From positions 1 through 32,226 of the forward strand of contig JAFUUB010000095.1 of assembly GCA_017483985.1 (NCBI GenBank): a stretch of DNA of 32,226 bases. The letters run 5' to 3'. Below the pieces are notes generated by a model, which saw only the letters and a program-made list of their open reading frames with translations, had not been told where the DNA came from and ran no database searches. A program made the position numbers and the translations under genes. Shown piece by piece: positions 25,721 to 32,226 of this stretch. How positions within the stretch are numbered: position 1 is the first letter of the stretch; each line of letters begins with the position of its first letter. This DNA comes from Bacteroidales bacterium (GTDB taxonomy: Bacteria > Bacteroidota > Bacteroidia > Bacteroidales > UBA932).

Positions 25721-27721
25721 CAGTTTGCGCAGCAAGGCTTCCGGCTGCGGGTCATGCCCCCGGAAGTTGCGATACAAGACACTTTCATCCTCGGACGAAC
25801 CCCGTTCGAGGATGTTTTTTCTGAAGCGGCCGGCCGTCACCCGGTCGAAAATCCCGTTCTCCTGGAAGAGGGCGAAGGCATCGGCTTCCAGGACCTCAGC
25901 CCATTTGTAGCTGTAGTAGCCGGCGCTGTATCCGCCGGAGAAGATGTGTCCGAAAGAGGGGCATACCGCCGTCCCTTCCACGGCAGGCAGGGTCCGGCAG
26001 GAGGCCAGGACCCGGTTCTCAAAGGTTTCCACATCCTCGTCCGGGACCTCGGTCAGGGTATGCCAGGCCATGTCAAGCAGGCCGAACTGCAGCTGGCGGA
26101 CCTGGGCGTAGCCCGCCTGGAAATTGCGGGCGGCCACGATCCGGCGGATGTATTCTTCCGGCAGGGGTTCCCCGGTTTCATAATGCCGGGCGAAGGTATC
26201 CAGCCAGGCGGGCTCATAGGCCCAGTTTTCCATGATCTGGGAAGGCAGTTCCACGAAATCGCGCGCCACGTTCGTACCGCTCTGGGACGGGTAGCGACCG
26301 CGGGACAGCATCCCGTGCAGGGAATGGCCGAACTCGTGCAGGAAGGTCTCCACTTCGCCATGGGTCAGCAGCGAAGGCTTGCCGGCGGCAGGCTTGGAGA
26401 AATTGGTCACGATGCTGATGAAGGGACGGTAATCCTTTCCGTCCTGCATGTACTGACCCCGGAATTCCGTCATCCAGGCTCCGCCGCGCTTGCTTTCCCG
26501 CGGGAAGAAATCGGCATAGAAAAGGGCCAGGTGCTCCCCCTTCTCATCCAGGACCTCGTAAACCCGGACATCCTTGTGATAGACCGGGATATCCTTCCGC
26601 TCCGAGAAGGAAAGGCCATACAGGCGGCCGGCCAGTCCCAGCACGGCGCCGATGGTATCATCCAGGTTGAAGTAGGGCTTGAGCAGCTGTTCGTCGACAT
26701 CGAAGCGGGCCCGGCGCATCCGTTCCGACAAGAAACTGAAATCCCAGGGCATCAACGGTTCCCCGAACCCTTCCGCCCGTGCGAAACCGGACAGTTCCTG
26801 CACCTCCCGGCGGGCCACCGGGAGCGAAGGTTCCATGAGCCGGTCCAGGAACCGGTCGACCGTCCCGCGGGTTTTCGCCATCCGGGGCTCCAGCGCGTAG
26901 TCCGCATAGGTCCCGTAGCCCAGCAGGCGGGCCAGCTCGAGCCGCAGCCGGACGATGTCCCGGATCACCGGCGCGTTCGTATCCAGCGCACGGCTGTTGT
27001 ACGCCCGCCACATCCGCTCACGCAGGTTCCTGCGGGTGCTGAACTTCAGGAAAGGACCGTAACTCGGGGCATGCAGCGTGAACAGCCAACCCTCCTGACC
27101 CTTCTCCTGCGCCGCTTCGCGGGCGGATTCCCGTACATATTCCGGCAGGCCTTCCAGATCCGCCTCCTCCGTCAGCAGCAGGGAAAACGCATTGGTCGCC
27201 GCCAGGGTCTGCTGCCCGAATTTCAACTCCAGCAGATCCAGCTGTTCCCGGATCTGCCCGAACCTACCACGCTCGGCTTCCCCGAGGGCCGCGCCGCTGC
27301 GGACAAAGCTCCGGTAGGTCTCTTCCAGCAGCCGCTGCCGGTCCCGTTCCGTTTCCTGTGCCGCCTGGTGGACCTGACGGACCCGTTCGAACAGGGGCCG
27401 GTTCAGGGAGACATACAGCGAGAACTCCGTCAGCATCGGGGATACCTGCTCGGCGATCGCTTCCATCTGCGGGTCCGAGTCGGCCTCCAGGAGATTGAAG
27501 AAAATTCCTTCAACCGCGGCCAGGTCACGGCCAGCGTATTCCAGGGCCTCCACCGTATTGGCGAAGGTCGGCGGTTCGGGGTTGCCCACAATGGCGTCGA
27601 TTTCCGTTTTCGCCCGGCGTACCGCCTCTTCAAAGGCGGGAACGTAGTGTTCTTTCCGGATCAGGTCGAAACGCGGTGCGCCGAAAGGGGCGTCAGAAGG
27701 GATCAGGAGCGGATTATCCAT
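25709..27721 (-). CDS. M3-family metallopeptidase (oligopeptidase A / peptidyl-dipeptidase Dcp type)
   Basis: This 670-residue zinc peptidase cleaves short peptides. The site is HEFGH (462-466) in VETFLHEFGHSLHGMLSRGRYPSQSGT, with E491 of DFVELPSQIMENW as third ligand. The largely helical N-terminal half and the C-terminal GYSAGYYSYKWAEVLEADAFALF are typical of Dcp/OpdA. No signal peptide is visible, so it is probably cytosolic. The ATG at 27721 overlaps the stop of the zinc-ribbon gene upstream by 8 bases, so both are likely made from one transcript. A terminator overlaps its 3' end. Confidence 0.93.
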   Translation of the reverse strand: MDNPLLIPSDAPFGAPRFDLIRKEHYVPAFEEAVRRAKTEIDAIVGNPEPPTFANTVEALEYAGRDLAAVEGIFFNLLEADSDPQMEAIAEQVSPMLTEFSLYVSLNRPLFERVRQVHQAAQETERDRQRLLEETYRSFVRSGAALGEAERGRFGQIREQLDLLELKFGQQTLAATNAFSLLLTEEADLEGLPEYVRESAREAAQEKGQEGWLFTLHAPSYGPFLKFSTRRNLRERMWRAYNSRALDTNAPVIRDIVRLRLELARLLGYGTYADYALEPRMAKTRGTVDRFLDRLMEPSLPVARREVQELSGFARAEGFGEPLMPWDFSFLSERMRRARFDVDEQLLKPYFNLDDTIGAVLGLAGRLYGLSFSERKDIPVYHKDVRVYEVLDEKGEHLALFYADFFPRESKRGGAWMTEFRGQYMQDGKDYRPFISIVTNFSKPAAGKPSLLTHGEVETFLHEFGHSLHGMLSRGRYPSQSGTNVARDFVELPSQIMENWAYEPAWLDTFARHYETGEPLPEEYIRRIVAARNFQAGYAQVRQLQFGLLDMAWHTLTEVPDEDVETFENRVLASCRTLPAVEGTAVCPSFGHIFSGGYSAGYYSYKWAEVLEADAFALFQENGIFDRVTAGRFRKNILERGSSEDESVLYRNFRGHDPQPEALLRKLGIL

Positions 27722-28157
27722 GGTTCTTGTTTTTCATCTTCACAGACGGCAAAGTTACATCATTTTCGCCGGTCTTCCGCCTCGGCACGGCAATTTTGGT
27801 CAAATTGGAGACCTGCACCGGGGTCTGGCGGAAGCGGATGTCGTAGCACATGTACTCGAACCGCTTCCCGACCGGAATGGCCGCCGTCACATACTGGGGA
27901 TCATACCCCAAGGCACGCAGGTCGTACAGGTTCATCCGGCTGATCCCCAGCTTGAGCAGGTCATTCAGCACTTCGTAATTCCGGGACAGCGTTGCCTTGA
28001 CCTTGACCCGGTAGCTCCGGGAGGCCTTTTCCAGGCGGTTGTGCCACCGGTTCTTGCAGCTTTCGCAGCAGAACTTCTTGTCCGGGCGGCCATACGTGAT
28101 GGCATCGCCGCACTCCAGGCAGTGCACCAGGGCATCCTCATCGATCTTGTAAGCCAT
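27714..28157 (-). CDS. small zinc-ribbon protein, function unknown
   Basis: This basic protein has 147 residues. C13-x2-C16 and C30/C31-x2-C34 (HCLECGDAITY...KKFCCESCKNRW) form a likely zinc ribbon. A helical stretch follows (LSRNYEVLNDLLKLGISRMN), then LYDLRALGYDPQYVTA, and a tail rich in Lys/Arg. I chose the ATG at 28157 (MAYKIDEDAL) since conserved-looking sequence begins there; the frame is open a further 16 codons upstream. It looks like a conserved Bacteroidales hypothetical protein, but I know no function for it. It overlaps the M3 peptidase start by 8 bases. Binding to nucleic acid is a guess from charge and zinc ribbon. Confidence 0.75.
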   Translation of the reverse strand: MAYKIDEDALVHCLECGDAITYGRPDKKFCCESCKNRWHNRLEKASRSYRVKVKATLSRNYEVLNDLLKLGISRMNLYDLRALGYDPQYVTAAIPVGKRFEYMCYDIRFRQTPVQVSNLTKIAVPRRKTGENDVTLPSVKMKNKNHG

Positions 28158-28531
28158 CGTCTCTGATTTTTCGCACAAGGTCGGTTCCTTTCCCCTATTC
28201 CGCAAGCAAAACTTGCCCGGGAAACGGATTTTACCCGAATCTTTTCCATCCTAACTTTTTTCCTTGCCGTCCCGGCGCAATACAGGATCATCTTGGCGGC
28301 AAAAGAAAAAATCCAGCCCGGGCCCGGAGCAAGTTGCCCGGGCCGGGAGATCCGCCGGATCCGCCCAAAAACCCGCTGTCCTGAAGCCGCATGGCAAAAA
28401 GGTGCGGCAAAATTCGGAAGTCCGTCCGTTGCTTGGGGGAAACCCCGTCCGGAATCACCTTACTTTGCCCCTGTCCACCAAGCGCGCAAAGAGAACGTGG
28501 AACCCAAGTTCAACCGAAAAATCATGCAACC
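28158..28531. other. intergenic region between the zinc-ribbon gene and ssb
   Basis: These 374 bases hold no credible gene. They contain GC-rich repeats of the core GCCCGGG (around 28214, 28316 and 28336), a small hairpin GCAAG-CAAAA-CTTGC (28202-28216) in the leader of the zinc-ribbon gene, a GGGG-GAAA-CCCC stem (28435-28446), and the ssb promoter box. I see no tRNA or known RNA fold. Confidence 0.5.
28460..28467 (+). promoter_or_regulatory. -7 promoter element for ssb
   Basis: TTACTTTG differs from TAnnTTTG at one position and lies 65 bases before the ssb ATG. No exact TTTG at -33 is visible. Confidence 0.4.
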
Positions 28532-28696
28532 ATGGAACAAATCAACAAAATTGAAATCGTCGGCCTCGTCGGCAGCGTCCGCACCAACATGGTCTCCGGC
28601 AACCTGGTCGTCAACTTCACCGTCGCGACGACCGCCGCGTACAAAGGAAGGGATGGCAACGCCATCATGGATACGACCTGTTATAGCAACAGATAG
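28532..28696 (+). pseudogene. ssb: single-strand DNA-binding protein, truncated by element insertion
   Basis: The ATG at 28532 starts MEQINKIEIVGLVGSVRTN and continues VVNFTVATTAAYKGRDGNAIMDTT, the N-terminal half of a Bacteroidales SSB OB-fold. The next codons should encode W-(H/Y)-N-V, but at 28676-28680 (ACCTG) the host sequence runs into the left end of the mobile element. The frame then reads CYSNR and stops at 28694-28696. Only about 48 native residues remain, too few for the OB-fold, and the acidic C-terminal tip is missing. The rest of the gene should lie beyond the right end of the window. Since SSB is normally essential, another intact copy, a mixed population or an assembly join must be considered. 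Confidence 0.85.
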
Positions 28697-28703
28697 ATTA
28701 TCA
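28676..28703 (+). repeat. left terminal inverted repeat of the RIT element
   Basis: It begins ACCTGTTAT and ends TTATCA and matches the reverse complement of 32198-32225 at 19 of 28 positions; the outer nine and inner six are identical. GTTAT/ATTAT repeats at 17-base spacing inside it resemble paired recombinase-binding arms. The ACCTG also belongs to the ssb reading frame, so the exact crossover is uncertain by a few bases. Confidence 0.7.
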
Positions 28704-28718
28704 CAAGTACATTACTGA

Positions 28719-28749
28719 AGTTGCCCATCACGGTTAATGACGGGCAACT
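28719..28749 (+). terminator. terminator-like hairpin just inside the left end
   Basis: AGTTGCCCATCA (28719-28730) pairs with TGACGGGCAACT (28738-28749), 11 of 12 pairs with one mismatch, around a 7-base loop. CTTTTGCTTTTTCTCTTTT follows on the plus strand. It would stop transcription entering from the broken ssb gene. It also lies 28 bases past the last recombinase stop and may end that transcript, though without a U-tract on that strand. Confidence 0.7.
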
Positions 28750-28776
28750 CTTTTGCTTTTTCTCTTTTGATAACGA

Positions 28777-29802
28777 TTATACCAGGCTTTTTAAGTATTC
28801 CTTTAGCTTGCTATTTCTTTCCCACGATTTGACCTTCGGCTCGGTTAAGCCAACTTCAGCGTAGGCGTTTTCCAGTGCTTTCCGTTTCTGTTCCGAGTCT
28901 GCCCTTGCGTATATCTCAGTAGTTTGTATTGACACGTGTCCTAAGATGTCCCTTATGTAGATCAGATTTACGCCAGCTTGTAGAAGATGCATCGCTCTAG
29001 AGTGCCTTAAGACATGAGGGCTGATCTTTTTCGGGACGAGTTCATCATGAAGGAGTTGAGCTTCATGATAGTACTTATTCAAGACATATGTTATTCCAGC
29101 GGTAGTCAGTTTTTCTCCCCAGGTATTATAGAAGAGGGGATGTGATTCTCGACTAGGAAGATTTAAGTGCTGCTCATTAAGGTATGTCTCAAGGAGGTGT
29201 ACGATATTACCGTCCAGAGGGACGATCCTCGTTTTATTCCCTTTACCGTGTATCATAACAACGCTAGGTTTTGACAAGCGCAAAGAGGAGGGAGTAAGGT
29301 CTATCAGTTCCTGTACTCTTGCTCCTGTATTATAGAGCAAGGATAACATGGTCAGGTCTCTACGTCCTTTTACGGATGACACGTCGATGGTTTCCAAGAC
29401 GGATTTGATACCATCTATCGTCAGATAATGGATTGATCCTTGTGGGCCTTTTTTATTCTGGATAGAGCACACCTGTTTCCACTGGGCCATATGCAGAGGG
29501 TCCACGTACATCAGATATTTACAGAAGGATTTCATGACCACACATCTGTGATTCCTTGTCCTGACCGTGGCTGATTTGTTGGTTTCCAGCCAGTCCAGGT
29601 AGTTCAAGACATTGACCTTATTGACATTAGCCAATGATATTCTATCTGGCTTTATATGATGTTCGTCCTCCAGATATGACAGGAAGAGTGTGAAGGCGTC
29701 TCTATATGCCCTTATTGTATTTGTGCTACATCCCTTTTCCTGCACGAGATATCCCATGAAGAACGATTCCAGCACTTTTGCAAAGTCTTTATACTGATCC
29801 AT
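28777..29802 (-). CDS. tyrosine recombinase, third gene of the RIT trio
   Basis: This 341-residue phage-integrase-family recombinase has an N-terminal SAM-like core-binding domain (about 1-110) and a C-terminal catalytic domain with R162 (TGARVQEL), K187, H263-V-L-R266 (SPHVLRHSRA), H289 (LGHVSIQTT) and the nucleophile Y298 (EIYAR). All are intact. The ATG at 29802 (MDQYKDF) gives a 14-base overlap with the middle gene, the same overlap as at the other junction. The ATG at 29823 is an alternative. The domain is closest in look to short XerD-like integrases. In known RIT elements this would be the RitC position. Confidence 0.88.
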   Translation of the reverse strand: MDQYKDFAKVLESFFMGYLVQEKGCSTNTIRAYRDAFTLFLSYLEDEHHIKPDRISLANVNKVNVLNYLDWLETNKSATVRTRNHRCVVMKSFCKYLMYVDPLHMAQWKQVCSIQNKKGPQGSIHYLTIDGIKSVLETIDVSSVKGRRDLTMLSLLYNTGARVQELIDLTPSSLRLSKPSVVMIHGKGNKTRIVPLDGNIVHLLETYLNEQHLNLPSRESHPLFYNTWGEKLTTAGITYVLNKYYHEAQLLHDELVPKKISPHVLRHSRAMHLLQAGVNLIYIRDILGHVSIQTTEIYARADSEQKRKALENAYAEVGLTEPKVKSWERNSKLKEYLKSLV

Positions 29803-30811
29803 TTTTGTGTGCGTTAACGGCATTGTTTATTATAGCATCAAGAGAACAGGAGAGCGGCTCCGTTAGTTTTATTATGTCGGGATACGCCATTTGAGCGAGC
29901 CTGAGATAGTATTCCGTGGCCTGGACATCACAATGTCCCATATATACGGCCAACGATGGCAGACAGCAATATGGATCTTTCCCAGAGTTGACCATTTTTA
30001 TCAAGGCGTGCACGCAAGCAGTATGTCTTAGGTCATGTACCCTGATACCGTGGCGGCCTTGCTGGTGTTCTATCCCGGCATTTCTGCAGATTGCCTTAAA
30101 GCGCAATAAGATAGTCCCTGAGTTACATTTTGTCCCATCAGCCTTTATAAAGAAGGGGCTTGACGGGTCTTCTATTCCTCGCTTATGGATTCTGCTCCTA
30201 TTTTTTATGTATTCTCGTAGTACAGTTTCTAGGGATTCGTTGATTGGGGCGAACCTGTCGCTATTATTCTTGGTGTTTCGTATGACTATGCAATGCTTGT
30301 CAAACATGACATCGCGATTCTCTATCCCAAGAGCTTCATTTATTCTAACACCGGTGCTGTAAAGGAGGCGAAGCAATGCCGGCATCACGAGTTGATGGCT
30401 GTCTTTCGTATATAGTCGATTCCTCCAGTCATCACATTCTTGGAAGATTCTGGCCATTTCGTCGTACGAGAAGATATACGGAACAAAGGTTCTTTTGCCT
30501 GGTTTGGGGAGCCGCGGGATATGACATAGCACCCCACAACCACATAAGTATTTGAGGAACCTTGACATATAAGCCGCCTCGTGATACAGAGTTATCTGGT
30601 TTAGTTTGTTCCATCTATCCAACCAGCCCTTGTATATGTCCTCTGACAGGAGTTGATCAGCCTGATAGTTGACCTTCACGAGGTGTTGATCAAAGGTTCG
30701 AAGTGCGAACTCAACCAATTTGGGATTCTTCCCTTGAGATTCATATTCGGCAAGGTATGCTCTCATATAAGGAGCAAGGGGACTGACAAAGTCATACTCA
30801 ATTTTCTCCAT
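29789..30811 (-). CDS. tyrosine recombinase, middle gene of the RIT trio
   Basis: This 340-residue tyrosine recombinase has R156 (TGVRINEAL), K181 (NTKNNSDRF), H259-D-L-R262-H263 (VHDLRHTACVHAL), H293 (MGHCDVQAT) and the nucleophile at Y301/Y302. All catalytic positions are kept. The spacing between the HxxR box and the second His is longer than usual (IKMVNSGKDPYCCLPSLAVY), which looks typical of this subgroup. The ATG at 30811 is preceded at 7 bases by a strong GGAGGG; the ATG at 30826 lacks such a site. It overlaps both neighbours by 14 bases. This is the RitB position. Confidence 0.88.
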   Translation of the reverse strand: MEKIEYDFVSPLAPYMRAYLAEYESQGKNPKLVEFALRTFDQHLVKVNYQADQLLSEDIYKGWLDRWNKLNQITLYHEAAYMSRFLKYLCGCGVLCHIPRLPKPGKRTFVPYIFSYDEMARIFQECDDWRNRLYTKDSHQLVMPALLRLLYSTGVRINEALGIENRDVMFDKHCIVIRNTKNNSDRFAPINESLETVLREYIKNRSRIHKRGIEDPSSPFFIKADGTKCNSGTILLRFKAICRNAGIEHQQGRHGIRVHDLRHTACVHALIKMVNSGKDPYCCLPSLAVYMGHCDVQATEYYLRLAQMAYPDIIKLTEPLSCSLDAIINNAVNAHKNGSV

Positions 30812-32039
30812 ACAATATCCCTCCATATTGATTGTAGTACTTACTATCCACCATGGGAACATCAAGAGAACAAGCTAACAGCGAGTTTATGTCAGTATTC
30901 AAGTATAGCATCGTTGAACTCGTGAACTCATGACCTAATGCCTCTGATATAACAGGTAGTTCTACCCCGTCATTCAATAAAGTCGATGCCAAGCTATGTC
31001 TTAGAGAATGCGGGCCAGCGTGCCTCCCAGATATGTCCGCCCCTGAGTTTATGATCCAACGATGGACACGGGATGTAATTAGGTTCGTCGTGACAGGCCT
31101 GTCCGGATATGTATGGCTTACGAAGATATTCTTTATCTCGGTCGGAGGGCGTCCATTTCGGATATAGTCTATTATTGCATTGCCAACATCTTCAAGTAAA
31201 GGAAGTGCGACATATATGCCGGTTTTCGATTGTTCTATCTCGATTATGTTCCTGTCCCAGTCAATATTTGAGAACTTTAGAGAACAGATGTCACCCGCTC
31301 TTATACCGAGCCGTGAAGCTAGGAGAACCATAGCGTAGTCGCGCTTCCCTACGGCGGTAGATCTATCGATAGAAGACTCAAGCTTTATAACTTCCTGAGG
31401 ACTATAGAACGACGGAAGCTTTCGACGCTCCTTATAATGTATGTCATCCAGACAACTCTTTTGTTCATAACTGATCAGGTTCTGCTCATACGCAAAGGTT
31501 AATAAAGATTTGATTAGTATACGGATTCTACGTTTTTGGAAGTTGGAAGAGTCAATATAACGGACAATAACGTCCCTGGACAGATTTTTTAGTGTGATTT
31601 TCTGCGCATGCATACTGACACAGAAGTAGCTTAGATAACTTCTGTATTGCGCAATAGTTGCCGTTCCAACATGACCCTCCATAGACTCAAGTAATGACAG
31701 GGCCGTTGAACCGATTTCTCCAGGGAACGAGCGAGTTTTGGGACAAGCTCCGCGCCGGTATATTGTATCGGAAGAAGTGCTCAAGATTAAGTTCAATCGC
31801 TTTATAAATTTATGTGCTCGCACCTTGATCCTGTCTTTCCACGACGAGGTTGCAACCATCTTGAGATACTTTTCCCCAACTAATGGCGTGTAATATCGAC
31901 ATGCTGTTTCTGTCATGTATTCAATCAGACGCCTAGCGTCCCAGACATATGCAACAATGACTCTTTCTGAGAAGCCACTTGCAATGAGGACCGCCCTACA
32001 TCGATGGATGATCCTTTCTTTTGAGATGTTCTTTTTCAT
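30798..32039 (-). CDS. tyrosine recombinase, first gene of the RIT trio
   Basis: This is the largest of the three, with 413 residues. The extra N-terminal region (about 1-105) precedes a core-binding domain (about 110-205). The catalytic domain has R247 (LGIRAGDICSL), K272 (QSKTGIY), H344-S-L-R347-H348 (GPHSLRHSLAS), H370 (LGHEFTSST) and nucleophile Y379 (MLYLN). All are intact. I chose the ATG at 32039 (MKKNISKER), because the 23 codons upstream to the ATG at 32108 run through a terminator-like hairpin and an unlikely Cys/Ser/Leu-rich stretch. It ends 14 bases inside the middle gene. This is the RitA position. Confidence 0.88.
   Translation of the reverse strand: MKKNISKERIIHRCRAVLIASGFSERVIVAYVWDARRLIEYMTETACRYYTPLVGEKYLKMVATSSWKDRIKVRAHKFIKRLNLILSTSSDTIYRRGACPKTRSFPGEIGSTALSLLESMEGHVGTATIAQYRSYLSYFCVSMHAQKITLKNLSRDVIVRYIDSSNFQKRRIRILIKSLLTFAYEQNLISYEQKSCLDDIHYKERRKLPSFYSPQEVIKLESSIDRSTAVGKRDYAMVLLASRLGIRAGDICSLKFSNIDWDRNIIEIEQSKTGIYVALPLLEDVGNAIIDYIRNGRPPTEIKNIFVSHTYPDRPVTTNLITSRVHRWIINSGADISGRHAGPHSLRHSLASTLLNDGVELPVISEALGHEFTSSTMLYLNTDINSLLACSLDVPMVDSKYYNQYGGILYGEN
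30819..30824 (-). promoter_or_regulatory. strong Shine-Dalgarno for the middle recombinase gene
   Basis: GGAGGG on the minus strand ends 7 bases before the ATG at 30811, within the end of the preceding gene. Bacteroidetes genes rarely use such sites, and none is apparent before the host genes I checked, so it hints that the element has a host history outside the phylum. Confidence 0.6.
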
Positions 32040-32051
32040 ACAATTGTTATC
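32040..32051 (-). repeat. subterminal copy of the terminal-repeat core
   Basis: GATAACAATTGT on the minus strand (32051-32040) is identical to 32199-32210 on the plus strand inside the right terminal repeat. A related plus-strand sequence, TTTGATAACGATTAT at 28766-28780, matches TTTGATAACAATTGT (32196-32210) at 13 of 15 bases. Thus TGATAA-type sites occur at both ends, directly before the first gene and at the end of the last. They may be accessory recombinase sites or operators. Confidence 0.5.
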
Positions 32052-32076
32052 GATAGAGATTATCAAAAGATACGAT

Positions 32077-32111
32077 AAAGAACAAAAAGAAAAAGAGGTG
32101 CAGTGCACCTC
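32077..32111 (-). terminator. terminator-like hairpin in the leader of the recombinase operon
   Basis: On the minus strand GAGGTGC-ACT-GCACCTC (32111-32095) is a perfect 7-bp hairpin followed by TTTTTCTTTTTG. It lies between the right end and the first recombinase gene (ATG at 32039), so transcripts entering from outside, or from a promoter near the end, would stop before the genes. An 8-bp inverted repeat upstream (32118-32125 with 32153-32160) could take part in attenuation. Confidence 0.65.
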
Positions 32112-32164
32112 AAGAATAGCTTGTTATCTAAGTCCTTAACACTGCTGGGCACAACAAGCTGAAA

Positions 32165-32193
32165 ACCATGCAGAGGACACCGGTTTATGTCAA
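32165..32193 (-). promoter_or_regulatory. weak sigma-70-like promoter upstream of the recombinase operon
   Basis: On the minus strand TTGACA (32193-32188) is followed after 17 bases by CATGGT (32170-32165). The -35 is perfect; the -10 matches poorly. It would drive a leader through the hairpin at 32111-32095 into the first recombinase gene. Confidence 0.3.
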
Positions 32194-32197
32194 GATT

Positions 32198-32225
32198 TGA
32201 TAACAATTGTCTTTGGATAACAGGT
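32198..32225 (-). repeat. right terminal inverted repeat of the RIT element
   Basis: Read on the minus strand it begins ACCTGTTAT and ends TTATCA, like the left end, with the same 28-base length. It contains GTTAT twice at 17-base spacing. The window ends one base later, so neither the exact boundary nor any target duplication can be checked. Confidence 0.7.
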
Positions 32226-32226
32226 G

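Follow-up and report, generated by a model that had tools for sequence, protein, structure and literature searches.

A cargo-free RIT element in a Bacteroidales genome and a proposed two-part mode of transposition

How RIT (recombinase in trio) elements move, and why three recombinases should be needed, are open questions in the field, and both are raised by a locus at 28681–32220 of contig JAFUUB010000095.1 from a Bacteroidales bacterium (assembly GCA_017483985.1), all 32,226 nucleotides of which were analysed here and are called the window. Three tyrosine recombinase genes occupy this locus within a repeated unit of 3540 bp without cargo, E, whose limits come from comparison with three close copies (L001, L002 and L003). 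By aligning the sequences of E and its relatives we could establish that these elements are laid out as E plus a palindromic spacer S, that S stands at either end of E, that empty sites hold neither E nor S, and that two of the cores bounding the parts, C2 and C3, can be unlike the native core of the target. It is probable from these features that a RIT moves as a unit of E and S bounded by 6-bp cores, through a circle with two S|core|E joints and with orientation-free entry into the target; the circle, the roles of the three enzymes and the mechanism as a whole are what we infer from the layout.

The genes ritA (30798–32039, 413 aa), ritB (29789–30811, 340 aa) and ritC (28777–29802, 341 aa) all lie on the minus strand, adjacent and in the order A-B-C, with starts at 32039, 30811 and 29802 and overlaps of 14 nt each (30798–30811 for ritA/ritB and 29789–29802 for ritB/ritC). 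An earlier account of the window made from its letters alone (the sequence-only reading) had described the same arrangement, and gene calls and matches of all three proteins to PF00589 confirmed it. The catalytic R, K, HxxR, H and Y, said there to be kept in all three proteins, proved to be conserved in alignments of rows picked by hand from the homologue lists: R247, K272, H344, R347 and Y379 of RitA were invariant among 46 rows, with H370 kept in at least 90% of them, as were R156, K181, H259, R262, H293 and Y302 of RitB (32 rows) and R162, K187, H263, R266, H289 and Y298 of RitC (40 rows). Xer-type models matched RitA, RitB and RitC, all below cut-off, and the XerD/XerC models gave the top scores for RitC, likewise below cut-off. 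In a tree of 11 trios, two of them from pHG1, each Rit protein grouped with its counterparts from the trios of other bacteria (support 99/98 for RitA, 100/99 for RitB and 100/99 for RitC, without Xer outgroup), in agreement with the RIT class proposed earlier; pHG1 is named as a RIT-rich replicon in the covered parts of PMC3414803 and PMC2864759. The structural model of RitA has two four-helix sets (helices 7–87 and 107–185) before the catalytic domain (mean predicted local distance difference test score, pLDDT, 84.9), and that of RitC an extra C-terminal helix (331–340, block pLDDT 80) after helix 303–316 (blocks 58–63). A RitA with two sequential core-binding domains and a RitC with an additional C-terminal helix are given as RIT hallmarks in the sections of PMC8138268 used here. 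No gene beyond the trio was apparent between the ends of E, apart from a frame of 148 aa antisense to ritB and one of 90 aa antisense to ritA, both known from the open-reading-frame list only, and the claim of a cargo-free element held to that extent. Since the tree, the RitA and RitC model features, the gene order and overlaps, and the ~3.5-kb repeated unit agree, the window trio is firmly assigned to the RIT elements as a cargo-free member, and it looks like an ordinary, intact one.

A RitB scan covering one genome per species gave the three loci L001, L002 and L003, all in Bacteroidales assemblies, and a RitB scan of viral contigs gave no match. L001 and L002 are 99.94% identical to the window element over 3548 and 3551 aligned bases, respectively, and L003 is 91.4% identical over 3552; beyond the aligned unit their flanks differ. 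These copies in three other assemblies, in ssb genes or a transposase-like gene, support the earlier suggestion that the element is possibly mobile. One close-copy assembly is titled as from water buffalo omasum, and the RUG isolates are presumably rumen genomes. In the window, the insertion target is an ssb-like gene, missed by the sequence-only reading, of which the 5' half (28532–28680, plus strand) reads MEQINKIEIVG...IMDTT up to the core; this 49-aa fragment has a weak SSB/ssb match, below curated cut-offs. In L002, E interrupts the ssb of another genome at the same codon, with the ritA end and not the ritC end at the ssb 5' side, and what separates E from the ssb 3' half is a core, then the palindrome TTATCACAATCTTTTGATAA and then a further core. 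The joined L002 flanks read through as an SSB-family protein and match PF00436 above cut-off. L001 (genome G001, its second side on contig C45 as L007/L024) is inserted in a transposase-like gene, for which no Pfam match was found.

The ends of E each carry two copies of a motif in the same direction at a pitch of ~17 bp, and S carries two facing copies (seen by eye, and for the ends of the window element by pattern scan). At the ritC end, the core C1 (GACCTG, 28675–28680, plus strand) forms the 6 bp between target and E and is followed by the outer motif TTATAGCAAC (28681–28690, plus) and, at a 17-bp pitch, by its direct repeat, the inner motif TTATCACAAG (28698–28707, plus). At the ritA end, the inner motif TTATCAAATC (32194–32203, minus; read by eye) lies at the same 17-bp pitch from the outer motif TTATCCAAAG (32211–32220, minus), after which comes the core CAGGTG (reverse complement CACCTG; 32221–32226, plus), the expected inner joint C2. 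S is not seen in the window because the sequence stops at this core; L001 and L007/L024 have S at this ritA-end position, and the window's own S would lie past the last base. The 28-bp inverted repeats that the sequence-only reading placed around the trio are present, and weak in this copy: 18 of 28 bases match (21 of 34), a score of 21 was reached anywhere in the end windows by 2 of 60 shuffles and in fixed register by none of 2000, and an automatic inverted-repeat search on the window alone did not list the true ends. Terminal inverted repeats are near-perfect, at 28–36 bp, in the Salipiger, Phaeobacter, Sagittula, Ruminococcus albus, L019 and L020 copies. The ends had been put at 28676 and 32225, correct to within a single base when the cores are included; alignment of the copies added that elsewhere the unit passes one end by ~26 bp, a ~20-bp palindrome plus a 6-bp core. 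S beyond one end enlarges the RIT unit and does not make the trio part of a larger island.

We read the trio loci at 31 places (the window, L001 with L024, L002, L003, L019–L023, L025–L032, the three trios of L033, L034–L043 and L064), a choice consisting of five of the six matches among 398 genomes (the sixth being L001) and of plasmid matches selected among 60 listed of 406 (RitB) and of 484 (RitA) records; a second RIT copy in L026, read on one side, was left out. S, of ~20 bp, lies beyond one end of E in 26 of the 31, spread over Bacteroidota, Proteobacteria and Ruminococcus, on the ritA side in 14 and on the ritC side in 12 (14 and 11 in the 25 loci of the scored set, plus L064 on the ritC side). 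The opposite end joins the target directly in 22 of these 26 and was not located in L023, L025, L040 and L042, and the five loci lacking a one-sided S are L003 (both ends), L021 (none), the window, L033b and L033c. A palindrome score of at least 10 was obtained in 17 of the 25 loci and in 0 of 1480 control windows (maximum 9), the test not being blind because S had been located by eye beforehand. The eight lower-scoring loci are five from Salipiger (score 3), in which 11-bp arms enclose a 10-bp loop that the score disallows, L037 and L043 (score 9), and L001, which was not properly scored because it is at a contig edge. Each family has one S across different target copies, with a half-site motif in common with the ends of E. 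The integrated layout in the relatives is target-C1-E-C2(inverted)-S-C3-target, and it is present in complete plasmids of Salipiger, Phaeobacter, Sagittula, Gemmobacter, Ruminococcus and Cupriavidus. Both S sides occur on complete plasmids of a single strain in Salipiger (L026, L028, L029 and L030 vs L027), Phaeobacter P66 (L035 vs L037 and L064) and Gemmobacter (L040 vs L041). S is on the 5' side of the IS110 gene in all five Salipiger loci, with E facing either way, and on the 3' side of ssb in the ssb loci with a visible S (L002 and L003).

Some of these loci have features of their own. Plasmid pTPRO8 of Salipiger profundus (L026, 11.2 kb) holds two opposite RIT copies, and in both the ritA end is the one that has S and an IS110 5' half beside it. 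In Gemmobacter fulvus, p3 (L041 with L063) has a cargo-bearing RIT of 6334 bp, with a DEAD/DEAH helicase gene inside the ends; the copy on p4 (L040), read at its near end, differs from it in the end at which S stands. In Ruminococcus albus 7, annotation splits ritC (L031) or ritA (L032) into two frames, and both copies are probably decayed.

The cores were compared at 16 loci, written E before S. At L019, L020 and L026–L029 a single 6-mer fills all three core places, inverted at C2, which makes the outer cores a direct repeat and the two cores next to E an inverted one; in the remaining 10 of 16 the 6-mers differ at one base at least, or their register is unsure by 1–2 bases (L031, L032 and L033a). 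Empty plasmid sites with 220/220 identical flanks were found for L035 (L044) and L037 (L045 and L046), with neither E nor S left in them. Among 15 loci, counted without L033a and with R. albus moved by one base, seven have unlike outer cores. Six of these, all except L032, were compared with empty alleles, and the empty 6-mer is C1 in three (L035, L037 and L039, with flank identity 205/220 for L039), C3 in one (L034) and neither in two (L030 and L038). Full core identity is not required, since incoming and native cores may differ at 3 of 6 bases (CACGCA vs GGCCCA). In Phaeobacter inhibens P66, the copy on pP66_h has the native C1 CACGCA at its ritC end and C2 GGCTCA at the ritA-S joint; the copies on pP66_b and pP66_c, in different flanks, both have the ritA end at C1, with CACGCA as C2 and GGCTCA as C3. 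A circle leaving pP66_h and keeping its C1 would carry CACGCA at ritC-S and GGCTCA at ritA-S, the very pair in the pP66_b and pP66_c copies, and the P66 cores are likely to be a parent-offspring trail inside one strain, with other parents possible. Two Sagittula strains (L038 and L039) have the pair GGTCCG and TGTCCG in common, but the 6-mer that is C2 in one is C3 in the other, which would follow from the use of different joints by the same kind of circle.

The joined flanks form one frame in L002, L019, L026, L028, L030–L032 and L034–L039. Pfam identified the targets as SSB (L002), Amidase_3 (L019), IS110 transposase (L026), an ArdC N-terminal with a zincin-like domain (L035) and a DDE transposase with a Mu-type C-terminal domain (L031), the last of which we take to be IS21-like. 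The L038/L039 target has its name, strawberry-notch, from annotation; the L016 and L023 flanks match topB models; and no convincing frame was found across the joined flanks of L020. By eye, several insertion sites fall in conserved motifs, such as HExxH.

In the mechanism we propose, E and S would form a circle, of about 3.57 kb for the window element, with two S|core|E joints, ritA-S and ritC-S, both of them dif-like in consisting of half-site, 6 bp and half-site. Because S is a palindrome, both joints would look alike to the recombinases, and either could recombine with the target core. The target's own 6-mer would then stay at the E side as C1, that of the used joint would pass to the S side as C3, and that of the unused joint would remain inside as C2. 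With either joint usable, E could face either way, the S side of the target being fixed by core polarity; in a next round the 6-mer at C1 of the donor would close the circle and travel on. RitA, RitB and RitC may divide the outer motifs, the inner motifs and the S half-sites among themselves, which is a guess. Free orientation is supported by the window and L002, which are 99.94% identical and sit at the same ssb codon with the ritC end and the ritA end, respectively, at the ssb 5' side. Taken together, and with rather less assurance than for the movement of E with S, we favour a RIT being a two-part transposon of E and a ~20-bp palindromic spacer that passes through a circle with two equivalent dif-like joints and enters by either end of E; its 6-bp cores would preserve, next to the native C1, a brief inherited trace of the targets used before (C3 and C2), and its families would choose codons within conserved motifs of genes that are frequent on mobile DNA (HExxH in ArdC-like proteins, transposases such as that of IS110, SSB and topB).

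The orientations could instead be a phase-variation switch, E entering one way and later flipping in place between the inverted cores C1 and C2. Inverted copies of one 6-mer at C1 and C2 in L019, L020 and L026–L029 would permit this, and Salipiger L026 and L029 vs L027 have the same IS110 flanks with E reversed. Such a flip leaves C3 unchanged and would account neither for the exchange of C2 and C3 in the Sagittula pair nor for the C1 of another copy inside the pP66_b and pP66_c copies. The strand of E is constant within each of three Phaeobacter plasmid sizes (4/4 at 57.8 kb, 3/3 at 125,569 bp and 3/3 at 115.5 kb, among 60 listed of 406 records), though these plasmids may be clonal. We regard the flip as unlikely. 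It is far less plausible still that E alone moves and that S was in the target beforehand as a palindromic attachment site, as the position of S outside the terminal inverted repeats, and at one end only where both ends were read (except in L003), might suggest: the empty sites with 220/220 identical flanks have no S and contradict E as the sole mobile unit, and S is the same within a family in different target copies and has its half-site motif in common with the ends of E.

Predicted islands that bear RIT trios have been described, in the covered parts of PMC3414803, and the trio might accordingly be the integration module of a larger island and not independent. There are, however, copies without cargo that have one and the same interrupted gene to either side, two of these copies have exact empty sites, and lengths peak at 3.5 kb; we therefore reject the island reading as most improbable. 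The longest contig measured 3500–3599 bp in 54 of 355 homologue rows, against 12 and 18 in the neighbouring bins, which fits a free-standing repeated unit; the rows are all 115 of one list and the best 120 of 3201 and best 120 of 7996 of two others, and the lists may hold the same elements. Variable orientation and a one-sided palindrome could also arise as assembly artefacts of a repeat longer than the reads, given that the nearest relatives are draft assemblies and that the window and L001 end at the repeat. The same layout in complete plasmids of six genera contradicts this for the general layout and makes it a most improbable explanation, which may still hold for L003 and L021.

Several observations weigh against the movement of E with S through a circle. 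No circle, excision or transposition was observed, the comparison being one of static sequences. In L003 (JAFYYM010000026.1), each end of E is followed by S and then by the 3' half of an ssb gene, a different one on each side; either two insertions recombined and this is the reciprocal product, or the contig is chimeric. L021 (G118:C117) is the mirror case: E has no S and stands between topB-like 5' halves that are inverted and differ slightly. Both loci need a second event or a chimeric assembly. The ends of E were looked for and not found in L033b and L033c. The L001/G001 target lacks 27 bp just before the core in comparison with its homologues, which have K-[Y/W]-G at the join, where the C1 core gives K-N-G and the C3 core T-P-G; the empty core was here assessed from protein homologues alone. 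The nearest empty relative of L034 (214/220) has the C3 core, not C1, and a second one (L061) has neither. For L030, no empty site at high flank identity was found in the search, and the 170/220 relative matches neither core and has a third; the relative of L038 also matches neither and differs in the 5' flank and core, so that these two cases favour neither core. A distant relative of L035 (L048, 170/220) has a third core as well. In GInt islands, mismatched overlaps of 6–7 nt are repaired, according to the covered parts of PMC5385486. By analogy, such repair would blur the core rule, and the odd L034 core could be explained by it.

Movement of E with S, if it occurs as proposed, predicts two circle joints, two product orientations and a fate for each 6-mer. 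The comparison fixes the ends exactly, defines a core of 6 bp and provides empty sites; it also suggests what the palindrome is used for and points to a likely core trail within one strain. Among known systems, Xer/dif resembles the RIT joint in its succession of half-site, 6 bp and half-site, and RitC is nearest to the XerD/XerC models (below cut-off); the difference is that RIT recombinases are self-encoded and the element is mobile. Motifs such as TTATGTAAAG resemble, as we take it, the XerD arm of dif; no clear dif-like arms were noticed in the RIT targets, with no search aimed at them. Tn554 has TnpA, TnpB and TnpC without a third recombinase, TnpC not being one, whereas all three window genes match PF00589. 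The Tn554 family is alike in that two recombinases act together and a 6-bp donor sequence moves along, and TnpC is by structure prediction the counterpart of Srap/GinD (both from the covered parts of PMC10214605). SE elements (strand-biased circularizing integrative elements) share with our proposal a circle that carries 6 bp of the donor left flank, left as a fingerprint at the far side, and differ in having IntA, Tfp, IntB, Srap and cargo; a palindrome goes unmentioned in the covered part of PMC10214605. GInt islands are alike in having three recombinase-type genes, circles and a 6–7 nt staggered overlap whose heteroduplex repair changes att, and differ in needing a fourth gene, ginD, and in reaching at least 76 kb (PMC5385486, covered parts). 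No fourth gene of the ginD/srap type was apparent between the ends of E in the window, apart from the two antisense frames.

Known RITs agree with the window element in the overlapping ritA-ritB-ritC, the ~3.5-kb size, the inverted repeats, a flank palindrome and insertion inside genes, and differ in their characteristic overlaps of 4–8 nt, compared with 14 nt here (PMC3414803). In the RIT literature as far as covered, the inverted repeats are of 28-9 or 34 bp with a palindrome noted at the flanks (PMC3414803, PMC10214605); a 28-9 bp inverted repeat and an overlapping palindrome flank ritA and ritC and do not fit usual recombinase sites (PMC3414803); genes that harbour insertions include radC and a transposase gene (PMC2864759); and target specificity, empty site and movement are listed as not tested (PMC10214605). 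Those same parts do not describe S as a joint or assign the palindrome a role, nor do they report free orientation, 6-bp cores, empty sites or core transfer for RITs. This coverage does not extend to Van Houdt 2009 or Ricker 2013, and some of what is proposed here may already be in print.

Other features of the window lie inside E and beside it. A palindrome downstream of ritC, AGTTGCCC...GGGCAACT (28719–28749), forms a hairpin followed on the plus strand by a T-rich run and is possibly a terminator against read-through from the target gene. A second pair of motifs, TTATCAAAAG, occurs inside both ends of E in the direction opposite to that of the end motifs (28764–28773, minus; 32060–32069, plus), and the pair may represent arm or regulatory sites. 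The neighbouring genes include tgt, murF and dut, which match above cut-off, and lptF/G-like and dcp-like genes below it, and point to a chromosomal origin of the window. An open frame of 163 aa (27714–28205, minus strand), located between the dcp-like gene and ssb, has no NCBIfam match.

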